Below, piece by piece: positions 3 through 24,727 of a stretch of 27,268 nucleotides of DNA (position 1 is its first letter; every line of letters begins with the position of its first letter). The DNA is taken from the IMG/VR virus record IMGVR_UViG_3300031758_000463, positions 1-27,268 of that record; one strand, written 5' to 3'. The notes under the pieces are model-generated. The model was not told where the DNA came from and ran no database searches. It saw only the letters and a program-made list of their open reading frames with translations. A program made the translations under genes and the position numbers. This DNA is from a virus.

Positions 3-1022
3 TCCATCATCATCGCAAATAACGATTCGTTGGATGCCGTGAGTGGATCGGCTGCCGGATATACTTTCTCGGATGGTACCGTTGTGATTGGAGAAGACGG
101 TCTAGCGTTAAATGATATTACTCTACGAGATGCTTCGATAGAGGTGACTGGGCCGCTGTTTCAAGGAACGATAAGCGGATATGCTTCTGGGGGAGGCGAC
201 GGTCCCCCGGCGGGTCTCACAATAGAGAAGTTTTCATTTACGTCAGATGGAAATGCCACAGATGTTGGAGACTTAACTGTCCAAAGAGGATACGCCTCAG
301 GTCAAAGCAGTTCTGTTTCAGGATACACTTCTGGAGGACTCGCCGGCGGTGCTCTCAATACGATCGACAAGTTTCCATTTGCTTCAAATGCGAATGCCAC
401 AGATGTAGGAGACTTAACGCAAGCTAGAAGGAGTATCGGCGGCGGGGGCCAGACTTCTACTGTAAGCGGTTATACTTCAGGAGGCTTTGTTCCTGCAGCT
501 GTTAATACCATAGATAAATTTCCGTTTGCTGTAAATGCAAACGCCACAGATGTTGGGGACTTAACTGTAGGAAGGTATAACATTGCAGGACAATCGAGTA
601 CTGAATATGGTTATACCGCCGGTGGATCACCTTCGAATATAATTGACAAGTTTCCATTCGCTGCCGATGGCAATGCTACAGATGTAGGCGATTTATCAAT
701 AGGAAAATTGGGGCCAGCTGGACAGTCTAGCACCGTGTCTGGCTATACTTCCGGATCATTCCCAGGTAGCAACGTAATAGATAAATTTCCATTTGCTTCA
801 AATGCTAACGCGACGGACGTGGGTGACCTTAGCCAAGCAAGAGGGTCTAACGCTGGACAGAGTTCTACTACGAATGGTTATACTTCTGGCGGGACGTACC
901 AGTTCCTGCCTACTGCGGTCAAAAACACAATAGATAAGTTCCCATTTGCGGCGGATGCTAACGCTACGGACGTAGGTGATCTTACGGTTACAAGATCCTC
1001 CCCGACAGGACAACAGGTATAA
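3..1022 (+). CDS. Kelch-like six-repeat propeller protein, paralog 1 (5' partial)
   Basis: The reading frame is open from the first bases of the window, so the start lies upstream. A TTG at 30 is in frame but has no Shine-Dalgarno sequence. After an N-terminal stretch of about 45 residues ending in FQGTISGY there are six repeats of the form SGYTSGG-(5-15)-NTIDKFPFA-(4)-NATDVGDLTQAR-(4)-AGQSS. The last repeat ends GQQV and lacks the SST-SGY part. Six repeats, with the incomplete last one complemented by the N-terminal FQGT-ISGY strand, suggest a closed six-bladed beta-propeller of kelch/galactose-oxidase type. There are no transmembrane segments and few charged residues. It is probably a virion surface or adhesin protein, because it lies in a late region next to tail-fibre genes. 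It forms a tandem group with the genes at 1026 and 2045. The repeat pattern is certain; the role is inferred. Confidence 0.8.
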   Translation, partial: SIIIANNDSLDAVSGSAAGYTFSDGTVVIGEDGLALNDITLRDASIEVTGPLFQGTISGYASGGGDGPPAGLTIEKFSFTSDGNATDVGDLTVQRGYASGQSSSVSGYTSGGLAGGALNTIDKFPFASNANATDVGDLTQARRSIGGGGQTSTVSGYTSGGFVPAAVNTIDKFPFAVNANATDVGDLTVGRYNIAGQSSTEYGYTAGGSPSNIIDKFPFAADGNATDVGDLSIGKLGPAGQSSTVSGYTSGSFPGSNVIDKFPFASNANATDVGDLSQARGSNAGQSSTTNGYTSGGTYQFLPTAVKNTIDKFPFAADANATDVGDLTVTRSSPTGQQV

Positions 1023-1025
1023 AAC

Positions 1026-2018
1026 ATGGCAAAAGTAATTACAGAAAATTTCGCGTTTACACAGTATGCTGATGGTATAGAATTTAACGGTAAAGCCGTT
1101 GCGACTGCGTTTGATGTTCCACCAATATTTCAAGGAACTGTAAGCGGTTACGCAACGGGCGGGAGCTATCCTAGCGGAACAACTGCAATTAGAAAATTTT
1201 CCTTTGCGTCAAATGGAAATTCTGTAAGTGTAGGCAACTTGACGAACGCCCTGAGTGGAGGTGCAGGACAATCTAGTTCTACATCTGGTTATACAACAGG
1301 ATCCGGCACCGGCTCTATCAATATGATTAATAAGTTTCCATTTTCTGTTGACGCAAACGCAACGGATGTTGGTGATCTTACACAATTAAGGGTAAATCCG
1401 GCCGGTCAATCGAGTCCCGTATCTGGTTATGGTTATTCGTCTGGCGGCACGGGCGGCTCACCTTATTCAAATGTAATAGATAAGTTTCCTTTTTCAGCAG
1501 ACGCCAATGCAACAGATGTAGGAGATCTTACGCAATTAAGAGAGTATCCGGCTGGACAATCTAGTGTTACATCAGGTTATTCTTCTGGTGGATATTCACC
1601 TCCATTTAGAAATACTATAGACAAGTTTCCGTTTGCTTCTGACGCAAACGCAACTGATGTTGGAGACCTTACTGTATCTAGGTCTAGAGCAGCAGGACAG
1701 TCTAGTGATGTGTCAGGATATTCGTCTGGAGGCAGAGAAATTCCTACTCTTCTAAATGTAATAGACAAGTTTCCATTTGCCTCAAACGCAAACGCAACTG
1801 ATGTCGGAGATCTTACACAGAGCCGTAACGCGGCTTCAGGTCAATCTAGTACTGTTTCAGGTTATTCGTCTGGAGGCGATGGCACCCCGTCCCCCGCCTT
1901 TTCAAATGTAATAGATAAGTTTCCTTTTGCCTCAAACGCAAACGCAACTGATGTAGGCGATTTAGCTCAAGGAAATGTAGGTGGGGTAACTGGACAAACC
2001 GCAGGCCAACAGGTATAA
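1026..2018 (+). CDS. Kelch-like six-repeat propeller protein, paralog 2
   Basis: 330 residues. It starts at ATG 1026, three bases after the stop of the preceding paralog; AGGT at 1015-1018, inside the upstream gene's last codons, serves as the ribosome binding site. The N-terminal segment of about 38 residues (MAKVITENFAF...) differs from the other paralogs and ends in FQGTVSGY. Six repeats follow. The first is divergent (IRKFSFASNGNSVSVGNL) and the second has MINKFPF; the remaining four are canonical. The last repeat carries a short insertion before GQQV. The stop codon TAA lies inside a TATAAATA late-promoter box. It is likely a structural or adhesin propeller, as for its paralogs; the distinct N-terminus may be the part that docks it to the virion. 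Confidence 0.82.
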   Translation: MAKVITENFAFTQYADGIEFNGKAVATAFDVPPIFQGTVSGYATGGSYPSGTTAIRKFSFASNGNSVSVGNLTNALSGGAGQSSSTSGYTTGSGTGSINMINKFPFSVDANATDVGDLTQLRVNPAGQSSPVSGYGYSSGGTGGSPYSNVIDKFPFSADANATDVGDLTQLREYPAGQSSVTSGYSSGGYSPPFRNTIDKFPFASDANATDVGDLTVSRSRAAGQSSDVSGYSSGGREIPTLLNVIDKFPFASNANATDVGDLTQSRNAASGQSSTVSGYSSGGDGTPSPAFSNVIDKFPFASNANATDVGDLAQGNVGGVTGQTAGQQV

Positions 2019-2021
2019 ATA
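2014..2021 (+). promoter_or_regulatory. T4-type late promoter (TATAAATA)
   Basis: Exact TATAAATA, 24 bases before ATG 2045. The stop TAA of the upstream propeller gene (2016-2018) lies inside it. Confidence 0.75.
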
Positions 2022-2044
2022 AATGAAAATGTCAAGGATTTAAT

Positions 2045-3010
2045 ATGCCTATTACGTTAAACAAAGACTCGATTAACTTCGGTAACTACAGCATATCTCT
2101 GCATCCTAACGGCATTGAGATCGACGGTAAGTTTAAGTATGCGTCGAGTGATATATACGTGAGACCATTTCAAGGTACGATAAGTGGATATACTTCTGGC
2201 GGAACAATACCACCAAATAATAGTACTAACACAATTGATAAGTTTCCATTCTCGTCCAATGCTAACGCAACTGACGTGGGTGATTTGACGCAAGCAAGGC
2301 GCGAGAGCGCAGGCCAATCAAGTGCCGAATCTGGTTATACTTCTGGTGGTTATGGATCAGGAAACTCAAACGTAATAGATAAGTTTCCGTTTGCCGCGAA
2401 TGGCAACGCAACGGATGTTGGCGATCTTACACAAGCAAGAAATTCGCTTTCCGGAACTTCTAGTTCCGCATCAGGCTATTCAGCTGGAGGTTTTGGTCCT
2501 CTAAATACTGTTGACAAGTTTCCGTTTGCCGCGAATGGCAACGCAACGGATGTTGGCGATCTTACACAATCAAGGTATGGCCCGGCAGGTCAATCAAGTA
2601 CATCATCAGGTTATGCGTCTGGTGGTTTTACAACTGCAAACTCTAATGTAATTGATAAGTTTCCTTTTTCTTCTGATGCCAACGCGACGGACGTCGGTGA
2701 TTTGACTCTGGCAAGAAACCTTGTAACTGGTCAATCTAGTTCTGAATCAGGTTATGCGTCTGGAGGAGGAACCTCAAACGTAATAGACAAGTTTCCATTT
2801 GCATCTAATGCAAACGCAACAGACGTCGGAGATCTTACACAAGCAAGAACTGGATCGGCGGGTCAAAGCTCTACAGAATCTGGTTACACTTCTGGTGGAA
2901 GCCCATTTCTTAACACAATCGACAAGTTTCCATTTGCTGCAAATGCTAACGCAACAGACGTGGGTGATTTAACTCAAGGTAGACAATCTTCGGCTGGTCA
3001 ACAGATATAA
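2045..3010 (+). CDS. Kelch-like six-repeat propeller protein, paralog 3
   Basis: 321 residues, with AAGGA at 2034-2038 six bases before ATG 2045 and a late-promoter box at 2014-2021. The N-terminal 44 residues (INFGNYSISLHPNGIEIDG) resemble those of the paralog at 8534 (INFGDYTLTFTNDGFEFDG), suggesting a shared virion-attachment segment. Six repeats of about 43-49 residues follow, ending GQQI. Repeats 2 and 3 share a 54-bp exact DNA repeat. Repeat 5 is identical at DNA level over 121 bp to the last repeat of the paralog ending at 10419. The stop overlaps the next late promoter. Predicted as a six-bladed propeller in the virion; the ligand is unknown. Confidence 0.82.
   Translation: MPITLNKDSINFGNYSISLHPNGIEIDGKFKYASSDIYVRPFQGTISGYTSGGTIPPNNSTNTIDKFPFSSNANATDVGDLTQARRESAGQSSAESGYTSGGYGSGNSNVIDKFPFAANGNATDVGDLTQARNSLSGTSSSASGYSAGGFGPLNTVDKFPFAANGNATDVGDLTQSRYGPAGQSSTSSGYASGGFTTANSNVIDKFPFSSDANATDVGDLTLARNLVTGQSSSESGYASGGGTSNVIDKFPFASNANATDVGDLTQARTGSAGQSSTESGYTSGGSPFLNTIDKFPFAANANATDVGDLTQGRQSSAGQQI
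2381..2569 (+). repeat. Two 54-bp exact direct repeats within paralog 3
   Basis: 2381-2434 and 2516-2569 are identical, offset by 135 bases, which is exactly one 45-residue repeat unit. They encode the core from KFPFAANGN to DLTQ of repeats 2 and 3. Confidence 0.88.
2746..2866 (+). repeat. 121-bp perfect repeat shared by two propeller paralogs (copy 1)
   Basis: Identical base for base to 10290-10410. It covers nearly all of repeat 5 of paralog 3 (one repeat unit plus part of the next junction). Confidence 0.9.
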
Positions 3011-3013
3011 ATA
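3006..3013 (+). promoter_or_regulatory. T4-type late promoter (TATAAATA)
   Basis: Exact TATAAATA, 28 bases before the sulfotransferase ATG 3041. It contains the upstream stop codon (3008-3010). Confidence 0.75.
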
Positions 3014-3040
3014 ATCTTGTGAAACAACGAGAGTTATATT

Positions 3041-3868
3041 ATGAAACAATTGAATTTTTGCGCAGGTCTTCCAAGAACCGGATCGACCGTGCTTATGAAT
3101 ATCCTACAACAGAACCCAGAAATCTTTACAACCGCCACGGATCCCTTTCCTGAGATACTCAGCGAACAGATCCTCATTAAATCTCGTTATCGAGAATCCT
3201 TTCAGGCAATGAGCTGCGAACAAGCAGACGATGCCGTTTACGGAATGGCGATTGGTGCTACGAAGGGTTGGTACGAAGGACTCACAAAGAAACCAGTCGT
3301 GATCTCAAAGTCAAGAACTTGGTCGAACCTTCATCATCTCTTTCCAAACAACAAGATACTCGTCACAGTAAGAGACCTTCGAGACATCGTCGAGAGTTTT
3401 GATCGTGTCAACGATAAGATTAAAGCCCTTCATACCTTCGGTGATGGTAACATTCTCTACGGCTCTATGACTGAGACCGAGAAGTATCACTATCACTTTA
3501 AAGAATCAAACGCGTTTTCAGGCAATCTGAGACACGAGATACTCAAGTACATTGAACTCTTTAAGACCAATCCGGAAAGAGTTAAGTTTGTTCGATACGA
3601 GGATCTGCTTAAGGAACCAGTCTACATGCTTCGAAGAATATACGACTTCTTAGGTCTTGAATACTTTGAGCACGATTTGAACAACATAGAGCAGTCTGCA
3701 TTATTCGAACACGACAACGCGTACTTTCGTGAGAAGACGGATCATCATACGAAGCCTTCTCTTCTACCTTGGAAGGAACCAAAGAGAGTACTCTCAGAAA
3801 GTTTTCACGAAAAAGTCGTGAGCGAAAACACCTGGTTCTATAAATCCTTTTATCCTGACGCGATATAA
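3041..3868 (+). CDS. PAPS-dependent sulfotransferase family protein
   Basis: 275 residues. The N-terminal motif GLPRTGSTVL (residues 9-18) matches the 5'-phosphosulfate-binding loop of sulfotransferases. KILVTVRDLRDIVESF (105-120) matches the 3'-phosphate-binding strand and helix with R111 and D112. VRYEDLLKEP (184-193) matches the conserved late motif. The family transfers sulfate from PAPS to hydroxyls or amines of sugars, lipids or tyrosines. The gene has its own late promoter at 3006-3013 and a weak GAG ribosome site near 3031. It sits directly after three propeller genes and before three oxygenase genes, so a virion or surface glycan or a tyrosine is a plausible acceptor (inference). Family assignment is firm; the substrate is unknown. 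Confidence 0.85.
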   Translation: MKQLNFCAGLPRTGSTVLMNILQQNPEIFTTATDPFPEILSEQILIKSRYRESFQAMSCEQADDAVYGMAIGATKGWYEGLTKKPVVISKSRTWSNLHHLFPNNKILVTVRDLRDIVESFDRVNDKIKALHTFGDGNILYGSMTETEKYHYHFKESNAFSGNLRHEILKYIELFKTNPERVKFVRYEDLLKEPVYMLRRIYDFLGLEYFEHDLNNIEQSALFEHDNAYFREKTDHHTKPSLLPWKEPKRVLSESFHEKVVSENTWFYKSFYPDAI

Positions 3869-3871
3869 ATA
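3864..3871 (+). promoter_or_regulatory. T4-type late promoter (TATAAATA)
   Basis: Exact TATAAATA, 28 bases before the oxygenase ATG 3899. It contains the sulfotransferase stop (3866-3868). Confidence 0.75.
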
Positions 3872-3898
3872 ATACTATATGATGATACGGAGTACATT

Positions 3899-4456
3899 AT
3901 GAACGAACACGCGACTAACATTTTTAATGTTCCAATATGGGGATACGTTCTTACGAACGAAAAGTATCAAGCAGAAGATTATCTCGACAGAGTTCTAGAA
4001 CTATACGCTCAGGAACCGTCGGTATCAAAGAGTAACTCGGGCGGTGCCTGGCAGTCGAGAGACGATCTTCACGAGGATCCGATCTTTCGAGAGTTTGTAA
4101 AAAACATTCTACTCAAATCGATCGCATCAAACATTCTCAAGGACTACGGCATCACCGAGTTCAAGCTACAGAGCATGTGGGCAAACGTAAACGGTAAGCA
4201 CTCTTTCAATCACCATCACACGCACGAGGGTTATCTCTCGGGTGTATTCTATCTTAGAGTACCGCAGAACTCCGGTCGTCTCGTATTTACGAACCCAGCC
4301 ATTCGCAGCGAGAGACATCCAATTCGTGATAAGAACTATCCAATTCAACCACAACCTCTTGCGTGTATTGTCTTTCCGAGTTGGCTCGAACACTATGTCG
4401 AACCAAATCAGTCGGACGATACGAGAGTAAGTATCAGCTTTAACATAGGTGTTTGA
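3899..4456 (+). CDS. 2OG-Fe(II) oxygenase-like protein (2OG-FeII_Oxy_5 type)
   Basis: 185 residues, starting at ATG 3899 with GGAG at 3889-3892 and a late promoter at 3864-3871. The core layout QSMWANVNGKHSFNHHHTHEG, then SGVFYLRVP, then LVFTNP, then ACIVFPSWLEHYVEPN, then TRVSISFNIG (about 91-184) is that of a putative 2OG-Fe(II) oxygenase family common in marine phages and bacteria. Candidate metal ligands are in the HHHTHE cluster (105-110) and H165; R176 is the likely 2-oxoglutarate-binding arginine. The first ligand pair is not a standard HxD. It begins a run of three oxygenase genes separated by 2-3 bases. Substrate unknown. Confidence 0.8.
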   Translation: MNEHATNIFNVPIWGYVLTNEKYQAEDYLDRVLELYAQEPSVSKSNSGGAWQSRDDLHEDPIFREFVKNILLKSIASNILKDYGITEFKLQSMWANVNGKHSFNHHHTHEGYLSGVFYLRVPQNSGRLVFTNPAIRSERHPIRDKNYPIQPQPLACIVFPSWLEHYVEPNQSDDTRVSISFNIGV

Positions 4457-4458
4457 TT

Positions 4459-5031
4459 ATGAACCATAAAAAGTTACACATTAACGGCCGTGAAGTAGAT
4501 ATCTATGACGATCTGTTTACGTTTGAAGAGATCTCAAAGATGTTCATCGCGGTTCGTAATTTTCCCTACACAGCTACTAATTTTAGCGACGGGTTTAGAT
4601 CGCACATCTACGGCGAAAAGCACAAGCTCAAGTACGTGTTTGGATCGCGTGAAGAAGCAACTAACTTTGGCATTATAAATAGACTCAATCAGGTCAATCC
4701 ACATTTTGCTAAGAATTATATCGTTCACCGACAATATGTAAATCTTGCTACGACGAGCGACTTCGATACGATTCACATAGACGACAATCATCTAGAAAAG
4801 CCTAAGACGGCGCTATACTATCCTCACCCGGATTGGAACATTCATTGGGGAGGTCATACATTCTTCTTCAACGAAAAGTTGGATAGTATAGAATACACAG
4901 CAGCGTATAAACCTGGAAGGCTTGTCATCTTTGATGGTTCGATACCTCACTGTGGTTCGCCGCCATACGCATCTGCTCAAGATAAAAGATACGTTGTGAC
5001 CTGCAAGTTTCAATATACGAATGGAGAATAA
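4459..5031 (+). CDS. 2OG-Fe(II) oxygenase (prolyl-hydroxylase-like)
   Basis: 190 residues from ATG 4459. The in-frame TTG at 4453 overlaps the upstream stop and is less likely, because AGGTG at 4447-4451 is well spaced for 4459. A double-stranded beta-helix oxygenase signature is visible: H106-x-D108 in the short stretch TIHIDD, GGHTFFF (131-137), GRLVIFDGSIPHCG with H164, and R177 in KRYVVTCKF. This matches the HxD...H...R iron and 2-oxoglutarate-binding set. The fold family hydroxylates amino-acid side chains or small molecules. It is coupled to its neighbours by 2- and 3-base gaps. A TATAAATA box lies inside the gene at 4674-4681. Confidence 0.82.
   Translation: MNHKKLHINGREVDIYDDLFTFEEISKMFIAVRNFPYTATNFSDGFRSHIYGEKHKLKYVFGSREEATNFGIINRLNQVNPHFAKNYIVHRQYVNLATTSDFDTIHIDDNHLEKPKTALYYPHPDWNIHWGGHTFFFNEKLDSIEYTAAYKPGRLVIFDGSIPHCGSPPYASAQDKRYVVTCKFQYTNGE
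4674..4681 (+). promoter_or_regulatory. Intragenic late-promoter-like box
   Basis: Exact TATAAATA inside the second oxygenase gene, spelling codons within ATT-ATA-AAT-AGA. It could add transcription of the two-domain oxygenase and following genes, but the next start is over 350 bases downstream, so it may be chance. Confidence 0.3.
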
Positions 5032-5034
5032 ATT

Positions 5035-6351
5035 ATGAAAGACACGGTAAGTTACTTTGAAGAAAATGGTTATGTAGTTTTACAGAACGTCCTACCTAAA
5101 GAAAAGTGCGACGAATTAGTAGCGCATATGTTTAAGCTACACGAAGAAGGTAAACTGGTTCAGGATGATCAGTGCCCTCTTTCTGATGCCATCTACGGAG
5201 ATCCGGTTTTTGATAACCTTCTTCAGAACGTAGCAGAACCTCTCGGTAAAGCCGTTGGCAGAAAGCTGCTTCCTACGTATTCGTATGCAAGGATCTATCG
5301 TCCTGGCGACGTTTTAAAGAAACACCTCGATCGCCCTGCCTGTGAGATTAGTACAACGCTTACTCTTGGATACGACGCAAAGGTCAACTGGCCAATTCAT
5401 TTTGCAAACCAAGACGGAACGAAAGAAACAGCAGTGACTATGGAACCCGGTGAGATGGCTGCGTATAAGGGAACCGAGATGGTTCACTGGAGAAAGCCGT
5501 TTAAGGGTAACTGGCACGTTCAGGTCTTCCTACACTTCGTAGATGCTAACGGTCCTCATGCAAACCAAGCAATGGATGGAAGACAGTCTCTTGGTGTTGA
5601 CAAGACTGCGCAGACCATGACTCAAGCAGCGCAGCCGCCACAAAAGCAACAGGAAAATGTAGTAAACCAACCAAGAACGGACAACCTCAGTCTAAAGAAG
5701 AATAACGAGATGTTAATTCCGGATCCAATCTTTGGCGGTGTGATCCTACCGAGCACTGATAATACTCTTCCTGGTTATTTTCCAGTCAATAGCGAAACGT
5801 TTCCTACGATGATGTTCACAAACCAGGAGTGTGATCGTATCATTCAGATCGCGAAGGACTCGTATTCTTCTGCTGCGAGCGTTGGTAGTGGAAAGAGCGG
5901 AAGTGTTGCGAAACAAATCAGATCTGCCGAGATCTATCCGATAGAGAACAACGAAGAGAATCGTTGGATCTTTAAAAAGATCGCGAGTGTTGTTTCAGTA
6001 GTAAACACCGTACACTTTGAATACGACATCTCGGCTATCGAGTACGCGCTTCAACTCATTCACTATCCTTCGGATGCGGAAGTTCCTGGCCACTATAACT
6101 GGCACGTGGATGCCGGTCCTGGCGTAGTAGCAACGAGAAAGATCTCGTTTACTGCACAGCTCTCGGACCCGAATAGTTATACCGGTTGCGATCTCATTGT
6201 AGACGATCACGGCAATAAAATTCAAGCATCTCGTGAGAGAGGATCGTTCTCGCTATTTCCGAGTTATATGCCACACGTAGTTACTCCAATCGAGACGGGA
6301 GATCGTTATGCTCTCGTCATTTGGATACATGGATCAAGGAGGTTCAGATAA
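5035..6351 (+). CDS. Two-domain 2OG-Fe(II) oxygenase (tandem hydroxylase fusion)
   Basis: 438 residues, with GGAGA upstream at 5023-5027. The N-terminal domain (about 1-180) has YSYARIYRPGDVLKKHLDR with H97-x-D99, then MVHWRKPF with H151, then HVQVFLHFVD. No clear 2-oxoglutarate arginine is visible in the last strand; H161 lies there. A Gln/Asn-rich linker (about 183-225) follows. The C-terminal domain (about 226-438) has YNWHVDAGPG with H357-x-D359, RKISFTAQLSD, FSLFPSYMPHVV with H414 and R424 in GDRYALVIWIHG, a complete prolyl-4-hydroxylase-like set. The two domains are not close copies of each other, so this looks like a fusion of two different oxygenases. Substrates are unknown. Confidence 0.85.
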   Translation: MKDTVSYFEENGYVVLQNVLPKEKCDELVAHMFKLHEEGKLVQDDQCPLSDAIYGDPVFDNLLQNVAEPLGKAVGRKLLPTYSYARIYRPGDVLKKHLDRPACEISTTLTLGYDAKVNWPIHFANQDGTKETAVTMEPGEMAAYKGTEMVHWRKPFKGNWHVQVFLHFVDANGPHANQAMDGRQSLGVDKTAQTMTQAAQPPQKQQENVVNQPRTDNLSLKKNNEMLIPDPIFGGVILPSTDNTLPGYFPVNSETFPTMMFTNQECDRIIQIAKDSYSSAASVGSGKSGSVAKQIRSAEIYPIENNEENRWIFKKIASVVSVVNTVHFEYDISAIEYALQLIHYPSDAEVPGHYNWHVDAGPGVVATRKISFTAQLSDPNSYTGCDLIVDDHGNKIQASRERGSFSLFPSYMPHVVTPIETGDRYALVIWIHGSRRFR

Positions 6352-6352
6352 T

Positions 6353-7306
6353 ATGGAAGAAGAAAAGAAAACAACAGCGCGTGAACTCGCAGTATTCGAA
6401 GAGATCCGTAAGAGCGATATCGTAACAGCCGAGGATGCGGAGAGAATGAAGGTGCCTATGGCCATGGTCTTTGGTCATGGTACTACTGGAAATCTTCCTA
6501 GCTTTGGCGGTAAGACACTTAATGAAAACTCTCAGTTGGTAGACGTTGCTCTCAAGAACGTCGGCGAGCTACAGAATATTTGGAACCACAGCCACACTCA
6601 ATGGATGTGGAAGCATATCAACTTTAGCTATCACAGCCCGCATAAAAATATGCGCCAGATTGCAGCAGAACTTGCGAAGAAAAAATCTGCTTTGAATGAA
6701 GCAAAGTGGCGTCATATCAAGAAGGAAGCAAGAATTCGTAAGATCCAAGAAGAACTGCAAAACGCAGAAAATATGGATTACTGGCGTGAGGTCGACCTGA
6801 AGATTAAGCTTGCTGAGTATCAAGAAGGTGCGATCGAAGGCATGTCATATATCGAAGGGGCTATGAAGGACGTTCTCGCACTTCAGGAAGTCTTTGAGGA
6901 TCTAAAGAAAACAGTTAGCGATTTCAGTGAGCACGACATCGAGAAAGAGGAATCGATATCACACCTAAAGAGAAGTATAGTCCAGTGTATTCGTGACGTT
7001 CGCCAATCTGGACGCATTACAAAGGGTGAGCAGGAGTATATGGAGCAGATCGGGGTGAACCCAGGTAAGATGCAACGTATCCTTCAGTTATACGTAGAAA
7101 AAGAGATCGAACAGGACTCTTGGGATAGCGAAGGCCTCTTTGAGTTTGTCGATGGATTGGCTCGCGAACTCGTCGAGAAACATAAGGTCGACGTGAAGAG
7201 AATGGAACTACTCGGTTACGATCCAGAATCAAGAGAGGACATTACATACTCTACGAAGGTCGCTCTCTTAGATAACTTTATGGACGAGGAGTCGAATGAA
7301 GACTGA
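6353..7306 (+). CDS. Conserved T4-like marine phage helical protein
   Basis: 317 residues. ATG 6353 is chosen because a near-perfect AAGGAGGT (6336-6343) lies nine bases upstream, although the frame is open further 5' into the previous gene. The protein is charged and mostly helical: an N-terminal acidic segment, a short loop region (PMAMVFGHGTTGNLPSFGGKTLNE), then a conserved core NIWNHSHTQWMWKH (about 75-88), a long Lys/Glu-rich coiled-coil-like stretch (about 105-150) and SIRQSG-like and VDVKRMELLGYDPESRE segments near the C-terminus. I recognise it as a conserved uncharacterised protein of T4-like marine phages; no enzymatic motif is visible. It is embedded in the enzyme cassette and overlaps the downstream methyltransferase gene by 11 bases. 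Confidence 0.75.
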   Translation: MEEEKKTTARELAVFEEIRKSDIVTAEDAERMKVPMAMVFGHGTTGNLPSFGGKTLNENSQLVDVALKNVGELQNIWNHSHTQWMWKHINFSYHSPHKNMRQIAAELAKKKSALNEAKWRHIKKEARIRKIQEELQNAENMDYWREVDLKIKLAEYQEGAIEGMSYIEGAMKDVLALQEVFEDLKKTVSDFSEHDIEKEESISHLKRSIVQCIRDVRQSGRITKGEQEYMEQIGVNPGKMQRILQLYVEKEIEQDSWDSEGLFEFVDGLARELVEKHKVDVKRMELLGYDPESREDITYSTKVALLDNFMDEESNED

Positions 7307-8039
7307 GTTCTATAACAGACTCATAGAAGCAAAGAAGTATACCGACAGGATTGGTTCTATCTACGGAACTGAGGATCTGTCGGTATACCTTTATTCCGTG
7401 ATACGAATGATGAAGCCAAAGACCGTTGTAGAACTTGGTACGGGTCTCGGATCCACGATGTTATGGAGTGCTCTTGCTCTTGAAGAGAACGATGAAGGAA
7501 TGCTCTACACAGTTGATGATGGAAGCGAGTGGAAGAGAATTAGTACTGCAAAGGAAATGATCGGCGATCGCTTTCGCGTAGACTATGATCGATTTGTGAA
7601 GGATCTTATTCTAGAGTTTCAGATATACGAAAGAGTAGAGTTTATAAACGAGAAGATCTCAATCGTTGATGTAAATGATATCGACATACTCTTTAGTGAC
7701 TTTGCTCACGGAGTCTTCGATGTAACAAAGTTGCTCGCTGATTATCTACCAAAGATGAACGAACACGCTAGGATCTACATCGACAGCGCGAGTACTCACT
7801 ACGGATCCTACAGCACGATCGAGCGTATCGTTCAGATACTTAACAATGGAAAGATACCGCGATCTTTCGAAGAAATTTCAAATCTGGATTGCGACTCGTT
7901 CCTAAGAAAAGTGCAGAGAAGTTCTTTTTCGATAGAGCACATCATTGAGAATAAAGATCGTAATCAAAACAGCACGTGCTGTATCACAATCTCTCCAATT
8001 GATATTTTTCCGTATCCTAGGAAAAACATGAGAGTATAA
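7296..8039 (+). CDS. Class I SAM-dependent methyltransferase-like protein
   Basis: 247 residues. ATG 7296 overlaps the preceding gene, with GAGGAG just upstream (7286-7291). TVVELGTGLGSTMLW (residues 43-57) is a class I methyltransferase motif I binding S-adenosylmethionine. TVDDGSEW, around residue 73, fits the acidic end of the second strand. DIDILFSDFAHG fits motif II/III, and ARIYIDSASTHYGSYSTIER follows. It resembles the CmcI/Methyltransf_24 kind of small-molecule or sugar O-methyltransferase. The stop TAA is inside the late-promoter box at 8035-8042. It probably acts with the adjacent oxygenases and sulfotransferase; the acceptor is unknown. Confidence 0.72.
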   Translation: MKTEFYNRLIEAKKYTDRIGSIYGTEDLSVYLYSVIRMMKPKTVVELGTGLGSTMLWSALALEENDEGMLYTVDDGSEWKRISTAKEMIGDRFRVDYDRFVKDLILEFQIYERVEFINEKISIVDVNDIDILFSDFAHGVFDVTKLLADYLPKMNEHARIYIDSASTHYGSYSTIERIVQILNNGKIPRSFEEISNLDCDSFLRKVQRSSFSIEHIIENKDRNQNSTCCITISPIDIFPYPRKNMRV

Positions 8040-8042
8040 ATA
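8035..8042 (+). promoter_or_regulatory. T4-type late promoter (TATAAATA)
   Basis: Exact TATAAATA, 26 bases before ATG 8068, which also has a strong AGGAGG. It contains the upstream methyltransferase stop (8037-8039). Confidence 0.78.
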
Positions 8043-8067
8043 GAATAAACTAAACTAGGAGGCAATC

Positions 8068-8400
8068 ATGGCAGTAATAGAATATATGCTACACAGAATC
8101 AACGGAAGTTCTCGCGCTGAGATACCAGGATGGGTTGGAGACCGCGGTCACTGGTTTAATTCTGCAGATAACACATTCATCGGATGGATTGACGACGTTC
8201 GCGACTACTACGTTCCAGACACCGTAGTTTCTCTGACGAAAGCAGATCTCGTTACTCGTCAGCTCGCAATGCACGCCAACACTCCGTTCATGACAATGCA
8301 GGATGATCCAAGCGCAGAGCCGGTAGCAATGACCGACGCAGAAGTTACGACTATGACCGAAGCATGGTATGATGATTTTGTTGCTAAGAATAGCGCGTAA
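8068..8400 (+). CDS. Conserved hypothetical phage protein (110 aa)
   Basis: The start ATG 8068 is supported by AGGAGG at 8057-8062 and the late promoter at 8035-8042. This is the strongest ribosome site among the window's small genes, so the product is probably abundant. The protein is soluble and acidic with no membrane segment. It has Trp/Tyr-containing motifs (GWVGDRGHWFNSADNTFIGWIDDVRDYY, about 21-48, partly aromatic) and a segment FMTMQDDPSAEPVAMTDAE near the C-terminus. I do not recognise a fold. Its position before the 42-aa gene and two propeller genes suggests a virion or assembly role, but that is inference. Confidence 0.7.
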   Translation: MAVIEYMLHRINGSSRAEIPGWVGDRGHWFNSADNTFIGWIDDVRDYYVPDTVVSLTKADLVTRQLAMHANTPFMTMQDDPSAEPVAMTDAEVTTMTEAWYDDFVAKNSA

Positions 8401-8405
8401 TAATC

Positions 8406-8534
8406 ATGGAATTAATTTTAGCGAAAAAGATCGAAGAACTCGAGTTTAACGAACTTCTTGAAGTACTTAGAAAGTTTCAGACGGAAGATCGTGACGCATT
8501 TCAATTGTTACAGGAATTGGTAGAAGATATCTGA
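8406..8534 (+). CDS. Small acidic helical protein (42 aa), coupled to the next gene
   Basis: A 43-codon frame, ATG 8406 to TGA 8532-8534, fills the gap between two genes exactly. Its stop overlaps the start of the propeller gene as TGATG, typical of translational coupling. The predicted peptide begins MELILAKKIEELEFNELLEV and is rich in Glu and Leu with heptad-like spacing, so it should form amphipathic helices. There is no strong Shine-Dalgarno; it starts five bases after the upstream stop codon. It could be a small chaperone or assembly factor for the propeller protein, but no homology is recognised. Confidence 0.6.
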   Translation: MELILAKKIEELEFNELLEVLRKFQTEDRDAFQLLQELVEDI

Positions 8535-9511
8535 TGGCACAGATTCAGTTCAACGCGGATGGAACGATAAACTTTGGTGACTACACACTCACGTTTACGA
8601 ACGATGGGTTTGAATTCGACGGTGCTATCTTGGCTACTGAGCATGTAGAAGCTTATAGTTTTCAAGGAAGTGTGAGCGGATATACTTCTGGCGGGTTTTC
8701 TATGAACACGATTGATAAATTTCCTTTTTCTGCAAGTGCTAACGCGACGGATGTTGGCGATCTTACACAAGCAAGATATAAAACAGCGGGTCAATCGAGT
8801 TCTGAATCTGGCTACACATCTGGAGGAAATTACACCGTTAATATAATTGATAAATTTCCGTTTGCTGTTGATGCTAATGCTACGGACGTTGGCGATTTAA
8901 CTCAAGGGCGGCATATGGTGGCAGGGCAGTCAAATGCTGAGTCTGGTTATACTTCGGGGGGGAGTATATCAAATCCATCATATATCAATGTCATTGACAA
9001 GTTTCCCTTTTCGGCAAGCGCGAATGCAACCGATGTCGGCGATTTGACGCAAGCAAGGCGCGAGAGCGCAGGCCAAAGCTCTACTGTATCAGGTTATACT
9101 TCTGGCGGATTTGTCCCACCAGCAATTGATACAATTGACAAGTTTCCCTTTGCGACTAATGCTAACGCAACTGACGTAGGCAATCTTACGCGTGGAAGAT
9201 ATAGAACTTCAGGACAATCAAGCGCAGATTCTGGTTATACTTCAGGCGGAAGCCCACCGCTATTTGACACAATTGATAAATTTTCGTTTGCGTCTGACGC
9301 AAACGCAACAAACGTAGGACTATTATTTTCAGGAAGTAGAAATGGTGCGGGTCAGTCGAGTATGGAGTCTGGCTACGTTTCTGGCGGGGCAAATCCGGGA
9401 GGTAGTTATAGCGATGTTATACAAAAGTTTTCATTTGCATCTGATGGAAATGCAACGGATGTCAGCAACTTGACACAAGCGCGGTTGCAGGCAGCAGGTC
9501 AACAGGTGTAA
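8534..9511 (+). CDS. Kelch-like six-repeat propeller protein, paralog 4
   Basis: 325 residues. The start ATG 8534 overlaps the stop of the 42-aa gene. N-terminal residues 1-45 (MAQIQFNADGTINFGDYTLT) resemble the N-terminus of the paralog at 2045 and lead into FQGSVSGY. Six repeats follow. Repeats 1-4 are canonical; repeat 5 has diverged (ATNVGLLFSGSRNG in place of ATDVGDLTQAR) and repeat 6 has VIQKFSF and DVSNL. It ends GQQV. A 36-bp stretch (9041-9076) is identical to 2282-2317 in paralog 3. Predicted virion propeller or adhesin; it forms a two-gene group with the next paralog. Confidence 0.82.
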   Translation: MAQIQFNADGTINFGDYTLTFTNDGFEFDGAILATEHVEAYSFQGSVSGYTSGGFSMNTIDKFPFSASANATDVGDLTQARYKTAGQSSSESGYTSGGNYTVNIIDKFPFAVDANATDVGDLTQGRHMVAGQSNAESGYTSGGSISNPSYINVIDKFPFSASANATDVGDLTQARRESAGQSSTVSGYTSGGFVPPAIDTIDKFPFATNANATDVGNLTRGRYRTSGQSSADSGYTSGGSPPLFDTIDKFSFASDANATNVGLLFSGSRNGAGQSSMESGYVSGGANPGGSYSDVIQKFSFASDGNATDVSNLTQARLQAAGQQV

Positions 9512-9513
9512 AC

Positions 9514-10419
9514 ATGGCAATACGTATAACAAAAGATAAACTTGAAAGTATTGACATTACAGACACGTTTCAAGGTGAAGTAAGCGGTTATACTTCAGGG
9601 GGAGCAGACCCCGGCAACGTTAATACAATTGATAAATTTTCTTTTTCCGCTGATGCTAATGCAACTGACGTAGGAGATCTCACGCAAGCTCGCCGAGGCC
9701 CCGGCGGCCAATCAAGTACCATATCTGGTTATACTTCTGGTGGTTATACACCGTCTCGCGTAAACACTATTGATAAATTTCCATTCGCAGCAGACGCAAA
9801 TGCCACTGACGTCGGTGATCTTACACAAGCAAGAGATAGAGTGGTAGGTCAATCAAGTACCATATCAGGTTACTCTTCAGGGGGAACAAACCCCGCCGCT
9901 GTTAATACAATTGACAAATTTCCATTTGCATCTAATGCAAACGCCACTGACGTAGGCGATTTAACTCAAGCTAGGTCTAGAGCAGCAGGACAGTCAAGCG
10001 ACGTATCAGGTTATACATCTGGAGATGGCGCAGCGCCGCTATATAACGTAATTGATAAATTTCCCTTTGCTTCAAATGCAAATGCTACTGACGTAGGAGA
10101 TCTCACACAAGGAAGATTTAATGGTATTGCAGGCCAATCAAGTACCATATCAGGTTACGCTTCAGGGGGAGGAAACCCCACCAACGTTAATACAATTGAT
10201 AAATTTTCTTTTTCCGCTGATGCAAATGCCACTGACGTCGGTGATTTAACTCAAGCAAGAAGTTTTGTAGCAGGTCAATCAAGTACATCATCAGGTTATG
10301 CGTCTGGAGGAGGAACCTCAAACGTAATAGACAAGTTTCCATTTGCATCTAATGCAAACGCAACAGACGTCGGAGATCTTACACAAGCAAGAACTGGATC
10401 GGCGGGTCAACAGGTGTAA
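9514..10419 (+). CDS. Kelch-like six-repeat propeller protein, paralog 5
   Basis: 301 residues, the shortest complete paralog. It starts at ATG 9514, two bases after the previous stop; the upstream gene's terminal CAGGTG acts as the ribosome binding site. The N-terminal segment is only about 19 residues (MAIRITKDKLESIDITDTFQ) before GEVSGY, so the docking segment seen in paralogs 3 and 4 is missing or reduced. The six repeats are very regular. Repeats 1 and 5 share a 42-bp exact DNA match (9615-9656 and 10182-10223). Repeat 6 is identical over 121 bp to repeat 5 of the paralog ending at 3010. The regularity and DNA identity suggest recent expansion or conversion. Confidence 0.82.
   Translation: MAIRITKDKLESIDITDTFQGEVSGYTSGGADPGNVNTIDKFSFSADANATDVGDLTQARRGPGGQSSTISGYTSGGYTPSRVNTIDKFPFAADANATDVGDLTQARDRVVGQSSTISGYSSGGTNPAAVNTIDKFPFASNANATDVGDLTQARSRAAGQSSDVSGYTSGDGAAPLYNVIDKFPFASNANATDVGDLTQGRFNGIAGQSSTISGYASGGGNPTNVNTIDKFSFSADANATDVGDLTQARSFVAGQSSTSSGYASGGGTSNVIDKFPFASNANATDVGDLTQARTGSAGQQV
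10290..10410 (+). repeat. 121-bp perfect repeat shared by two propeller paralogs (copy 2)
   Basis: Identical to 2746-2866. It covers repeat 6 of paralog 5, including its synonymous positions, and stops where the terminal GQQV codons begin. Confidence 0.9.
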
Positions 10420-11645: not shown

Positions 11646-11987
11646 ATGCCTACGCAAGCAAACTTATATGTAGATCATGGAACAGATTTTGGAATAAATC
11701 TAGAATTAACTGCTGAAGTTAATCAAGGTGATGTGTTTGTTATAAACGACAAATCTTTCTTCTGCAATATCAGAAAGCATTATTCTACGAGTATCGTGGC
11801 AAATGCTGAGATAACGATACTCGAATCTGCAACGAACTCTATAGAATTCTTTTTATCCGGCGAGTCGACTAGCAACCTGGATACTGGAAATTATGTTTAT
11901 GATGTTATGATGGTAAGTCCATCTGGTGCAAGAACAAAAATTCTTGAAGGTCTATTAAAGATAGTTCCAACGGTAACAGAAACATGA
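11646..11987 (+). CDS. Phage structural protein, beta-sandwich-like (113 aa)
   Basis: Starts at ATG 11646, 30 bases after the end of a late-promoter box. The sequence is beta-rich with alternating hydrophobics (LYVDHGTDFGINLEL; TNSIEFFLSG; TGNYVYDVMMVSPSGARTKILEG). The pattern of a limiting strand followed by GNYVYDV and then a Leu-Glu-Gly strand resembles N-terminal domains of baseplate or fibre proteins of BppU type; I cannot confirm this without a profile search. It overlaps the next gene by ATGA and leads a tail-fibre module. Likely a virion component. Confidence 0.6.
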   Translation: MPTQANLYVDHGTDFGINLELTAEVNQGDVFVINDKSFFCNIRKHYSTSIVANAEITILESATNSIEFFLSGESTSNLDTGNYVYDVMMVSPSGARTKILEGLLKIVPTVTET

Positions 11988-12196
11988 TCACGAACAGAGA
12001 AGACATAAAGATTTTTGTAAACCAAAAGACAGGTATTGTTACTAGGTCTATATTTGATCTCGCGGACGTGAATTTAATAGGCATAGCAAACAATGAAGTA
12101 TTAGTTTACGATGGTGCTTCAGGAAAAATAGTTCCTTCGGATATATCCACAATTCTGTCTGTCGGTTTAGAACAAGTTGATGGCGGTGTATTTTAA
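11984..12196 (+). CDS. Small tail-fibre-associated protein (70 aa)
   Basis: The start ATG overlaps the previous stop (ATGA at 11984-11987). It contains the motif DLADV-(8)-NEVLVYDGASGKIVPSD (about 26-53), a pattern often seen in phage tail-fibre proteins just before a repetitive shaft (sequence similar to 'LSDV..G.VLVYD...G.W.P'). Here it forms a free-standing short protein. It is probably a fibre or baseplate component, or an attachment piece of a split fibre. Confidence 0.55.
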   Translation: MITNREDIKIFVNQKTGIVTRSIFDLADVNLIGIANNEVLVYDGASGKIVPSDISTILSVGLEQVDGGVF

Positions 12197-12198
12197 TT

Positions 12199-12206
12199 TA
12201 TAAATA
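12199..12206 (+). promoter_or_regulatory. T4-type late promoter (TATAAATA)
   Basis: Exact TATAAATA, three bases after the upstream stop and 35 bases before the GTG start at 12241. Confidence 0.8.
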
Positions 12207-12240
12207 TCAGAGTATTTAAAAACTTCGAGGTATAAGAACA

Positions 12241-13863
12241 GTGGCTACAATAAAGCACAAAAGATCTAGTGAACCAGGTAGAGTTCCTACGCTAAATCAA
12301 CTCGAGTTTGGTGAACTTGCGATCAATACCTATGACGGTAATATCTACACCAAGATAGAGCGCGAAGGTGTAGCTGAAATAGTAAAGTACACCTCGACAA
12401 ATCCAGTCGAAAACGTGTACTATGTTCAAAAGAACGGAAGCGACGCGAATAATGTAACTGGTACGACTTGGGATGACGCATTTCTTACGGTAGAAAGAGC
12501 TATTGAAGCTGCTAACGAAAGAGACGGAGCTTTAACTCTCATTGACGTTGGTCCAGGCGAGTACATAACTCAAGGTCATATCGACGTTCCTGATAACTGC
12601 TTACTACGCACCGTTCACAGGGCTGCTATTTTTAAGCCAGCATCAGGATACGAAGAAAGAAACGTTCTCAGATTAGGATCTGGTTGTTTCATTGAAGGAT
12701 TCGTCTTTGAAGGTTGGAGACTCAACAGCCTCGACAACCCAACTGAAGGATTTGCAGTATCATTTAGACCAGGTGCGGTCATTCGTAGAGCTCCATACGT
12801 CCATAAGTGCGTGGTTAGAACCACACCTTTCTGGGATACTGTAGCACCACCGTTGGATAGAGATAACGCTAACCCGCTCGTTGGAAGAGGAGCTGGAGTT
12901 ATCCTAGCTGACGGTTCGGTTTGTTCTCAGTACAGCATATATCCAAACATCATGGCATGGGGTGCAACACCAGTTTCTCACAACGGTATTGGATACTGTG
13001 CTAAAAATGGCGCGCTAATTAACGCGGTAAACGCGATTAGTCTCTGGGCTCATAAACATTTTCTCGCTCTTGCTGGCGGACAGATCATTCTGTCTGCGTG
13101 CTCCACGCAGTTTGGTGATTATACGATGGTCGCAAGCGGAACTAGAAATATTGTAGTTCCAACTGAAGTAGCTGATGGAACTCTATCGATACAGACCGCT
13201 GCGTATCAAGCTATCGACGCTTCGGCTAATACTATCATTGATGCGATGTGGACAGATCTACAGTCAAACGGGTACACTACTGGGTGGAACGCAGAAGATG
13301 AAGTATTTACAAGAAGAGACGCGAGAAACGTTCTTCAATCTGTAGAGTGGGTTCTACAAACAGCAAACGAAAAGCCTATGCTCGACTTTGCTAAAGGATT
13401 ATTTACAACAACTGGAACGAAAGCATATTCTATCGATAAAGAACCAGCATTCATACGTTCGTTTCAGTTCATGAGAGATGCAATCATCGCACTTCCTAAT
13501 GTGAATTCTACTGCGGATGGTATTGTTTCAGCATTGTTCGCAGCATTAATTAATACGATTCAAAATACCGTTACAATCGCAGAACCTTCTACGATTACTG
13601 CGATAGGTCATACGTGGTCTGCTCTTATGTCCGGTGTTGCTTTGACTAAGATACCACCAGCAAGAAACGCAACTACGATAGAAGAAAGCATATTAGAATT
13701 AAATAACGGTCAAGTTATTGCATCGGGGCAAGACGACCAGGGTTCAGCATTGTTCGTTGGAGGAATGAGAATCGACGCAGACACTGGAGAGCTATCGGGC
13801 CCGCCATTCGATCAAGCAGTAAATAGAATTGCCACAAGAGCAGCAATCGCAAGGAGTTTTTAA
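12241..13863 (+). CDS. Tail fibre / adhesin-like structural protein (540 aa)
   Basis: The start is GTG 12241 with GAGGT at 12227-12231, nine bases upstream, and a late promoter at 12199-12206. The N-terminus (IKHKRSSEPGRVPTLNQLEFGELAINTYDGNIY) is the typical short virion-docking domain of phage fibres and major-tropism-determinant-like proteins. Residues about 60-330 look like a right-handed beta-helix: YYVQKNGSDANNVTGTTWDDAF, then short Gly-containing strands, GSGCFIEGFVFEGW and NGIGYCAKNG. Residues about 330-480 look helical. The C-terminus (GMRIDADTGELSGPPFDQAVNRI) resembles the ends of marine T4-like fibre proteins. Likely a tail or baseplate structural protein that contacts the host surface. 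Confidence 0.72.
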   Translation: MATIKHKRSSEPGRVPTLNQLEFGELAINTYDGNIYTKIEREGVAEIVKYTSTNPVENVYYVQKNGSDANNVTGTTWDDAFLTVERAIEAANERDGALTLIDVGPGEYITQGHIDVPDNCLLRTVHRAAIFKPASGYEERNVLRLGSGCFIEGFVFEGWRLNSLDNPTEGFAVSFRPGAVIRRAPYVHKCVVRTTPFWDTVAPPLDRDNANPLVGRGAGVILADGSVCSQYSIYPNIMAWGATPVSHNGIGYCAKNGALINAVNAISLWAHKHFLALAGGQIILSACSTQFGDYTMVASGTRNIVVPTEVADGTLSIQTAAYQAIDASANTIIDAMWTDLQSNGYTTGWNAEDEVFTRRDARNVLQSVEWVLQTANEKPMLDFAKGLFTTTGTKAYSIDKEPAFIRSFQFMRDAIIALPNVNSTADGIVSALFAALINTIQNTVTIAEPSTITAIGHTWSALMSGVALTKIPPARNATTIEESILELNNGQVIASGQDDQGSALFVGGMRIDADTGELSGPPFDQAVNRIATRAAIARSF

Positions 13864-13866
13864 ATA

Positions 13867-14331
13867 ATGGCACGCATTACATGTAGAACACCGTCTACAG
13901 GAAAACCATTAAGAATTATTCAGAGTAACGTATCAAATACGTATATAACGATAGCCGAAGCACCCGACTTTTCAGTTCCAGACGCTTCGAGTAAGTTTCC
14001 TGACCGCGACCCAACGAATGCAACACGAGCAATACGCCCAGGAGAAATATTTTTCTTAACGCCAATGGCCGCAAAAAATAAAGACACCGAGGACAGATGG
14101 ATCGAAACCATTCTTGTCACCGAGGATGACGAAACAATAGAAGTTGCAACGGTTACGGTTCCAGCTGGTGATACCGCTCTTATTCCACTACAAGGTAGAA
14201 GCCTACTTAAAAGGACGGCAAACAACTCATCTGGTGATACACTGCAGATAAGAGCAGAGATCTCAGGCGTATTCGATATATGGATATCTGCAGAAGAAAA
14301 ACTATCAAACGAACACGTTGGGGTTGAATAA
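13867..14331 (+). CDS. Virion-associated hypothetical protein (154 aa)
   Basis: ATG 13867 with AAGGAG at 13851-13856, inside the end of the upstream gene. The protein is beta-rich without membrane segments; its notable part is RAIRPGEIFFLTPMAAKNKDTEDRWIETILV, followed by VTVPAGDTALIPLQGRSLLK (about 97-116). The gene sits between two fibre genes, separated by three and two bases, so it is probably a fibre or baseplate component. I do not recognise a named family. Confidence 0.6.
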   Translation: MARITCRTPSTGKPLRIIQSNVSNTYITIAEAPDFSVPDASSKFPDRDPTNATRAIRPGEIFFLTPMAAKNKDTEDRWIETILVTEDDETIEVATVTVPAGDTALIPLQGRSLLKRTANNSSGDTLQIRAEISGVFDIWISAEEKLSNEHVGVE

Positions 14332-14333
14332 AA

Positions 14334-22634: not shown

Positions 22635-23378
22635 ATGGCGTTACCAACTACAAGAGAAGAGTTCAAAGATTATGTTCTTCGCAAGATAGGAGCCCCGGTT
22701 ATCCAGATCAACGTCTCGGAAGAACAAGTGGATGACCGTATCGATGAAGCTATATCTTTTTGGCGAGACTATCACTATGATGGGAGCCAGATGGTATATC
22801 TCAAGCACGCTCTAACTCAAGAAGAGATTGATGATGGGTACATAGAAGTACCAGACAGCCTTCTAGGTATCACTCGTATTTTTGATCTGAGTTCATCTAT
22901 CTCTACCGGAACTGGTTTCTTTAACGTCCAGTATCAGTTCGTTCTCAACAACCTAGAGGACATTACTGGTTATAACATTCAACACTATTACATGGCACTG
23001 TCACATCTTCAGTTTCTACAAGAGATCCTTGTAGGTCGACCTCTTATAAGATACAATCGTCATATAAACCGTCTCTATCTTGATGTTACGAAATCAATTC
23101 TAAATCCTGGATCATACATTATCATCGAGGGATACGATATCATAGATGGTGAAACATACTCGGACGTGTGGCAGGATCGTTTTCTTCAGAACTATGCATC
23201 CGCTCTCATTCGTGAGCAGTGGGGTATGAATCTTACGAAGTTTACAAATATGCAACTCGTTGGCGGGGTTCAATTCAATGGAGAACAGATCCTCTCTGAA
23301 GCTAAGAACGATCGTAAAGAGATGGAAGACACCGCAAAGACGTCTCTTCAACCGCTCGTATATAACTGGATTGGATAA
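22635..23378 (+). CDS. 13: Neck protein gp13 (T4-like)
   Basis: 247 residues, with a late promoter at 22603-22610 and AAAGGG at 22622-22627. The sequence is typical of T4-like gp13: N-terminal LPTTREEFKDYVLRKIGAPV, VSEEQVDDRIDEAISFWRDYH (27-47), IEVPDSLLGITRIFDL, and GYDIIDGETYSDVWQDRFLQNYASALIREQWG (about 166-196). The C-terminus ends LVYNWIG. In T4, gp13 and gp14 complete the head neck after DNA packaging and allow the tail to join. Position and order match the T4 series 13-14-15-16-17. The endonuclease gene begins at the very next base after its stop. Confidence 0.92.
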   Translation: MALPTTREEFKDYVLRKIGAPVIQINVSEEQVDDRIDEAISFWRDYHYDGSQMVYLKHALTQEEIDDGYIEVPDSLLGITRIFDLSSSISTGTGFFNVQYQFVLNNLEDITGYNIQHYYMALSHLQFLQEILVGRPLIRYNRHINRLYLDVTKSILNPGSYIIIEGYDIIDGETYSDVWQDRFLQNYASALIREQWGMNLTKFTNMQLVGGVQFNGEQILSEAKNDRKEMEDTAKTSLQPLVYNWIG

Positions 23379-24047: not shown

Positions 24048-24050
24048 TTG

Positions 24051-24725: not shown

Positions 24726-24727
24726 TC

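Follow-up and report, generated by a model that had tools for sequence, protein, structure and literature searches.

Kelch proteins such as KEAP1 and KLHL12 carry BTB/BACK domains, and the classical kelch motif consists of a GG doublet followed by spaced Tyr and Trp residues. Among phages, published passages describe three kelch-domain proteins in the jumbo phage CBB (CBB_550, CBB_552 and CBB_554), with CBB_552 found in the mature phage (PMC5259590), refer to kelch-like proteins of Eneladusvirus with a function not elucidated there (PMC7760394), and list a kelch-repeat protein of the cyanophage P-HM2 as unique relative to its co-isolate P-HM1 (PMC3037559). In the virus record IMGVR_UViG_3300031758_000463, known from metagenomes and analysed over a stretch of 27,268 bases (hereafter the window), we found five propeller proteins, K1–K5, which are clear paralogues of one another and are each built of six kelch-like repeats, or blades. 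The evidence leans, on balance, towards K1–K5 being virion-borne, multivalent six-bladed kelch-like heads with a diversified face that binds host-surface ligands, the set having been diversified by paralogy and blade exchange. A literature search retrieved no paper whose title or abstract concerns T4-like phages in which kelch-like propeller arrays show loop diversification and an exchange of blades, subscription papers being poorly covered; as phage kelch proteins are already in print and such arrays were not found described, the array seems new while its kind is known.

All five propeller genes lie on the plus strand, at the positions where a preliminary description of this DNA had placed five open reading frames (ORFs): K1 at 3–1022 (six blades spanning 171–1019), K2 at 1026–2018 (1140–2015), K3 at 2045–3010 (2180–3007), K4 at 8534–9511 (8672–9508) and K5 at 9514–10419 (9580–10416). 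The window begins inside K1, the 5′ end of which lies outside while its start is visible in the relative L014, and K5 has the shortest N-terminus among the five, namely 22 residues. Cutting before each SGY-type strand yielded 30 units, i.e. the six per protein that had been counted from the letters, with lengths of 43–54 residues (∼47 typically) and with GY.SGG, I.KFPF, NATDVGDL and GQSS as the framework motifs of a blade. The last repeat stops at GQQV/I in 5/5 proteins, again as described, but the FQGT ascribed to every N-terminus occurs in only 3/5 (K1–K3), being FQGS in K4 and FQGE in K5.

Pairwise comparison of the 30 blades, with the pair K3 blade 5/K5 blade 6 excluded, gave a mean protein identity of 82% over a 19-residue core, and the same codon was used at 45.5% of the shared core residues versus 45.9% expected from codon usage. 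This match between observed and predicted codon sharing rules out recent tandem DNA duplication. Blades within one protein used the same codon at 51.2% of shared core residues, slightly above the codon-usage expectation, those at the same position in different paralogues 42.6%, and those of different paralogues in general 44.3%. The repeats are neither chance nor recent DNA copies; since synonymous sites are randomised, the blade framework is old and has been held by selection on the protein.

AlphaFold2 models were made for K3 and K2, K2 being by eye the protein whose first and last blades are most unusual. The K3 model, made with 71 sequences from the window and its relatives, reached a mean predicted local distance difference test score (pLDDT) of 94.1 and a predicted template modelling score (pTM) of 0.86, with 24 strands between residues 47 and 320, and the K2 model a mean pLDDT of 87.8 and a pTM of 0.85, also with 24 ring strands. 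Foldseek comparison of the K3 model with the PDB returned KLHL12, KEAP1 and the designed SAKe6 kelch propellers as top matches. In VIA-align, K3 scored Z 40.3 to 7ona (root-mean-square deviation (rmsd) 1.7 over 269 residues) and 39.1 to KEAP1 1x2j (rmsd 1.6 over 270 residues), and K2 scored 40.4 to 7onc and 39.7 to 1x2j; among the matches listed, the two models aligned to human KEAP1, KLHL12 and SAKe6 with Z 38–40 and rmsd 1.6–1.9 over 264–280 residues. K3 and K2 are thus predicted with high confidence to be closed six-bladed kelch-type propellers, composed of six four-stranded antiparallel blades in a ring, and the closed propeller postulated earlier from the repeat number was borne out, for these two proteins, by the structure prediction and comparison that had been proposed as its check.

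Closure by a ‘velcro’ of the two chain ends, which had been proposed together with the ring, holds in the K3 model insofar as blade 1 is built from both ends: strands B, C and D (residues 47–51, 63–68 and 76–80) come from the N-terminus and strand A (residues 317–320) from the C-terminal GQQI, the letters being assigned from strand order; FQGT itself, however, forms at most a one-residue bridge. The K2 and K3 models resemble KEAP1, KLHL12 and SAKe6 in their six four-stranded blades, the closed ring and the GG after strand B, and share with SAKe6 its regular repeated-blade character. They differ from these in having 14–21% identity among the matches listed and a KFPF core without a conserved Trp, and phage anchors stand where KEAP1 and KLHL12 have BTB/BACK domains. 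Propellers of CBB, BcepSaruman and PhiPA3 also appeared in the viral fold search (BFVD), with 10–18% identity among the matches listed.

At the sequence level the family stands apart from annotated kelch repeats. Pfam Kelch models matched 0/71 family members at an E-value of 0.01 and 0/5 window proteins at an E-value of 1, and hence the family is classed as kelch-like by fold only. Over 989 blades the GG doublet is conserved at 95% and 94%, and no conserved Trp was found in these blades, the conserved aromatics being the Phe residues of KFPF. Searching the PDB with a profile of the family alignment A1 hit only kelch chains, and weakly (4 chains, E 0.11–0.74), and the one chain that phmmer with K3 drew from the PDB was a tail tube (E 0.41). 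All five window proteins matched phrog_19111, for which no function is assigned (E 1.3e-14 to 1.3e-25); it was the best PHROG, and the best-matching stretches span most of the propeller except in K4, where about half of it is covered. The Pfam matches to NucA/NucB, THDPS_M, DUF4907 and Peptidase_C57 were rejected as functions and read as summed repeat noise, with no single stretch in the five window proteins passing alone, the scan of the 71 members giving counts only. NCBIfam returned no family for K3 and weak matches in 7/71, 1 and 1 members. Against GenBank phages, megablast of window positions 1–25000 and tblastn of K3 returned nothing useful, the low-complexity filter perhaps interfering, while K2, searched at an E-value limit of 10, hit nothing but AG-345-L05 and two S-SKS1 records, at E 0.09–0.5. 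No match to P-HM2, for which the passage mentions one kelch-repeat protein, was among the listed results of the K3 tblastn and K2 searches.

To know how far the number six extends, homologues were collected from viral contigs by scanning with K3 (66 loci) and K2 (77 loci), each from the best 80 of 206 matches, so that these protein scans favour full-length matches; by two DNA patterns for one blade, which are blind to blade number and found at least 118 stretches each; and by one further contig scan, from which five metagenome-assembled genome contigs were also entered in the count. Among 412 distinct ORFs with units, the 295 closed by stops at both ends were counted, with alleles counted separately, and the 117 open-ended ones were excluded. 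Exactly six units were present in 273/295 closed homologous ORFs; the count of six, the conservation of which had been named as a check, is therefore conserved among homologues, and freely varying counts were not seen. Of the 22 ORFs without six scored units, 11 are spaced as six with at least one degenerate unit (L023_16, L029_2, L035_5 and L055_11 counted by eye, the other seven judged from spacing), 5 are frame fragments of Synechococcus phage S-SKS1 and 3 are broken or unresolved (L145_0, L089_16 and L314_1). L055_10 differs from L035_4 by two substitutions and by lacking exactly 49 residues, i.e. one blade. Two closed ORFs of 84–85 codons, L043_7 (L043:5911–6165, plus strand) and L080_55 (L080:3277–3528, minus strand), consist of an anchor and a single blade that still closes with the terminal strand, and are either deletion remnants or, possibly, subunits that could assemble into a ring.

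S-SKS1 (L091; BFVD M4QT40) has the unit plan of the K proteins at 28–32% identity and has no function assigned. It differs in having 12-blade (2 × 6) arrays and broken frames: two arrays are whole in the record (1657–3500 and 4343–6192), with 12 blades each by anchor counting, the twelfth blade in one of them being recognised by its C and A anchors only, and in both the 14-residue linker VSGGASERIKGSRT joins blade 6 to blade 7; a third array extends to where the record ends. The S-SKS1 arrays are interrupted by frame changes and are partly unannotated. Judged from these sequences, repeat number appears able to change, yet it is nearly always six or twice six.

The blades differ chiefly in their loops. 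Over 989 blades, framework columns mostly stayed below 1.5 bits, with some, e.g. 4, 15, 23, 25 and 41, at 1.9–2.3, while columns 8–13 (the BC loop) and 35–40 (the DA loop) reached 2.6–3.9 bits save for one Pro (1.4) and one Arg (1.5). Loops could be parsed in 551/1365 eligible blades (blades 1–5 of 273 proteins), strict patterns dropping divergent blades, and yielded 527 distinct BC and 526 distinct DA sequences versus 77 for AB and 108 for CD, a contrast that such string counts flatter, the AB turn being two residues long. Summed per-position entropy at the modal length (8 for BC and DA) was 19.9 bits for BC and 20.1 bits for DA versus 5.4 for AB and 6.1 for CD. Lengths span 2–19 residues in BC, 7–11 in DA, 6–7 in CD and 2–3 in AB; the large variation in loop length stated in the preliminary description is thus real, but resides mainly in one loop, BC. 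As the BC and DA loops of an antiparallel A-B-C-D blade lie on one side and the AB and CD loops on the other, most variation falls on one face, and it is via BC- and DA-type loops that KEAP1 binds Nrf2. On the less variable face, the CD loop retains in most blades an NAT, an N-x-T-like triplet (N 88%, A 89% and T 83% by column), which may be structural or else a site of modification.

Exchange of blade-sized DNA was also observed. A tract of 121 bases in K3 blade 5 (2746–2866, plus strand) is identical to one in K5 blade 6 (10290–10410, plus strand), which amounts to nearly a whole blade at different positions of different genes, whereas the longest exact match between two window blades has a median of 11 bases; both copies are present in the separate contig behind L002/L076. 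Exact tracts of at least 40 bases occurred in 51/11,678 same-contig blade pairs versus 1/14,421 random pairs between genome groups, being distributed over 20/56 contigs and split into 31/2,354 pairs within a protein and 20/9,324 between proteins. Between loci, L022_12 blade 4 and L024_16 blade 2 are 96.7% identical over 121 bases, and L051_17 and L032_14 are identical over the anchor and half of blade 1 and diverged thereafter. The K5 allele in L145 is the same as those of the window and L018 up to blade 5 and then shows clustered changes and a deletion, no donor of the substituted patch being found among the sequences collected. Bearing on a diversity-generating retroelement, a reverse transcriptase (PF00078) was detected in 0/9 records, which are possibly fragments, and in 3/14 control genomes. 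We put forward, tentatively, that the six-bladed heads form a repertoire whose variable face is rebuilt by recombining blade-sized DNA cassettes across positions and paralogues, which would make them combinatorial adhesins without a dedicated enzyme, with ring closure filtering the products to six.

By their ORF architecture, the propellers are C-terminal modules mounted on several anchors and stalks. The last unit lies within 8 residues of the stop in 267/273 six-unit ORFs and within 25 in 273/273, while the part N-terminal to the first unit, measured from the preceding stop, spans 19–715 residues (median 63) in the 273 ORFs, with collagen-like sequences and repeated stalk-like ones among the longest. 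In a search of the ORFs collected, a short anchor type represented by 40 sequences was found as well at the start of L015_7 (E 8.7e-6) and L009_2 (E 5.2e-5), which contain an S74 chaperone by Pfam and by eye, respectively. This anchor common to propellers and S74 fibre-type proteins is the best, though indirect, sequence evidence suggesting attachment to the virion.

The surrounding genes likewise support the virion-region setting that had been assumed for the cluster. Downstream of K5, tail-fibre genes occupy 11646–16325 on the plus strand, comprising a fibre-assembly-like ORF (11646–11987), a tail fibre (12241–13863), a small ORF without PHROG match (13867–14331) and a collagen-like fibre with an S74 chaperone (14334–16325). 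A T4-type neck and packaging block at 22635–27266 (plus strand), with head-tail adaptor, head closure, sheath stabiliser and terminase large subunit, assigns the window to a T4-like myovirus, whose terminase is nearest to those of Sinorhizobium phages of the phiM12 type (57–58%), too distant to name a host. An HNH-homing-endonuclease-like ORF with an HHIIPKSFGG motif by eye (23379–24047, plus strand) stands between the gene for the head-tail adaptor and that for head closure.

Between K3 and K4, a cassette at 3041–8039 contains a sulfotransferase (Sulfotransfer_3; 3041–3868, plus strand), three consecutive 2OG-Fe(II) oxygenase ORFs (3899–6351, plus strand), a 332-residue ORF that neither Pfam nor PHROG matched, and a methyltransferase; several of these genes are found next to propeller genes in other places too. 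The PHROG labels ‘DNA endonuclease V’ (phrog_274) and ‘ferrochelatase’ (phrog_2954) at 4453–6351 look wrong, Pfam identifying 2OG-Fe(II) oxygenases there. In a census of 159 neighbouring ORFs, grouped into 53 clusters from 77 partly overlapping loci, the sulfotransferase was the commonest neighbour of propeller genes (14 loci), followed by the family at 6308–7306 (13), the small ORF at 8068 (11) and S74 proteins (10); a sulfotransferase also lies between two of the S-SKS1 arrays.

The same phage is also represented by a longer contig, which matches the window over 9,007 bases at 99.91% identity. This contig contains a sixth paralogue just upstream of K1 (L075:18800–19804) and, also upstream, large ORFs and collagen-like fibre ORFs. 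Counted by distinct C-terminal ends, the regions examined in other large contigs contain 6 (G003), 8 (G004), 7 (G005), 12 (G006) and 7 (G008) propeller genes, and G001 contains 7 by automated tally and six (K0–K5) by gene positions. The view of five propellers side by side as an unusual set needs qualifying, as six large contigs, chosen for having matches, carry 6–12 copies; where CBB has three named kelch proteins, these phages have 6–12 near-regular paralogues beside tail fibres.

From these observations we infer a virion location, ligand binding and a benefit of diversity, and propose the following working model. K1–K5 would sit on the virion of a T4-like phage, where they would be the exposed C-terminal heads of short anchors or longer fibres, each phage having about 6–12 heads, probably as a set of interchangeable tips. 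The C-terminal strand would close blade 1 and the conserved framework would hold the ring. On one face, the BC and DA loops contributed by all six blades would make up a diversified surface, most likely for host-surface ligands, i.e. glycans or proteins. Three sources would supply the diversity, namely paralogy, the replacement of loops, and blade-sized DNA exchanged from blade to blade and gene to gene; the blade number would stay at six under selection for a closed ring.

Several observations weigh against receptor-binding heads diversified by blade exchange. Per residue, the entropy of the AB turn on the opposite face (2.7 bits) is as high as that of BC and DA (2.5), with CD at 1.0, so that variation is concentrated on one face and not confined there, and variable loops reflect either tolerance or diversifying selection. 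No near-whole-blade pair (95% over 100 bases) was found within one surveyed locus, indicating that recent whole-blade exchange is rare, the K3/K5 pair being absent from this test because its two genes sit on separate loci; the other same-contig tracts are mostly 40–70 bases; and the blade loss in L055_10 and the deletions in L003, L018 and L145, near contig ends or repeats, could be assembly errors. The variable AB turn is what plain surface tolerance predicts and accords with a somewhat unlikely alternative, that the propellers belong to the virion without being its primary receptor binders and serve as decoration, whisker or spacer proteins that bind weakly and non-specifically to environmental glycans or particles. 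Several similar copies per genome, many with short anchors, and dedicated tail fibres adjoining the propeller genes also fit such a role, and phage CBB, which has kelch-like proteins with one in the virion, has hair-like tail whiskers as well, the passage concerned making no link between the two (PMC5259590). A spacer role, however, leaves the near-unique BC and DA loops and the length variation of BC unexplained, and the cluster is located in the tail-fibre region.

That same location, among tail-fibre and neck genes, together with anchors and stalks resembling fibre proteins of the collagen-like and S74-partner types, makes it improbable that the propellers work inside the infected cell, mediating protein–protein interactions in host takeover or counter-defence in the way supposed for poxvirus kelch proteins, even though their closest solved folds are peptide-binding kelch domains and some neighbouring genes, for a sulfotransferase, 2OG-Fe(II) oxygenases and a methyltransferase, have no obvious place in a virion. 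Some enzymes have propeller folds, and phage propellers in BFVD carry the name galactose oxidase; enzymes with the host surface as their substrate, whether galactose-oxidase-like or depolymerases that cleave glycans, are nevertheless the least likely reading and a very improbable one, as no conserved Cys, His or Glu was found in the 45 consensus blade columns or in the invariant and near-invariant columns of alignment A1. Asp and Lys are conserved, but their recurrence in every blade is what framework residues would show, and the family profile matches look like summed repeat noise. Virion-borne heads with a ligand-binding face are thus the reading we prefer.

Many metagenomic phage contigs carry members of this family, which the Pfam kelch models miss, and the passage on a long-read marine viral data set reports nine times more kelch-repeat proteins than in assemblies (PMC9238414), so such arrays may be under-counted. 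The family provides a natural series of rings in which the framework is conserved and the loops are diversified, and makes two questions testable, namely which surface the heads bind and whether adhesins diversify through blade swapping. Its near-strict six, together with the 12 = 2 × 6 of the distant S-SKS1, offers a clean natural record of ring closure constraining repeat number.

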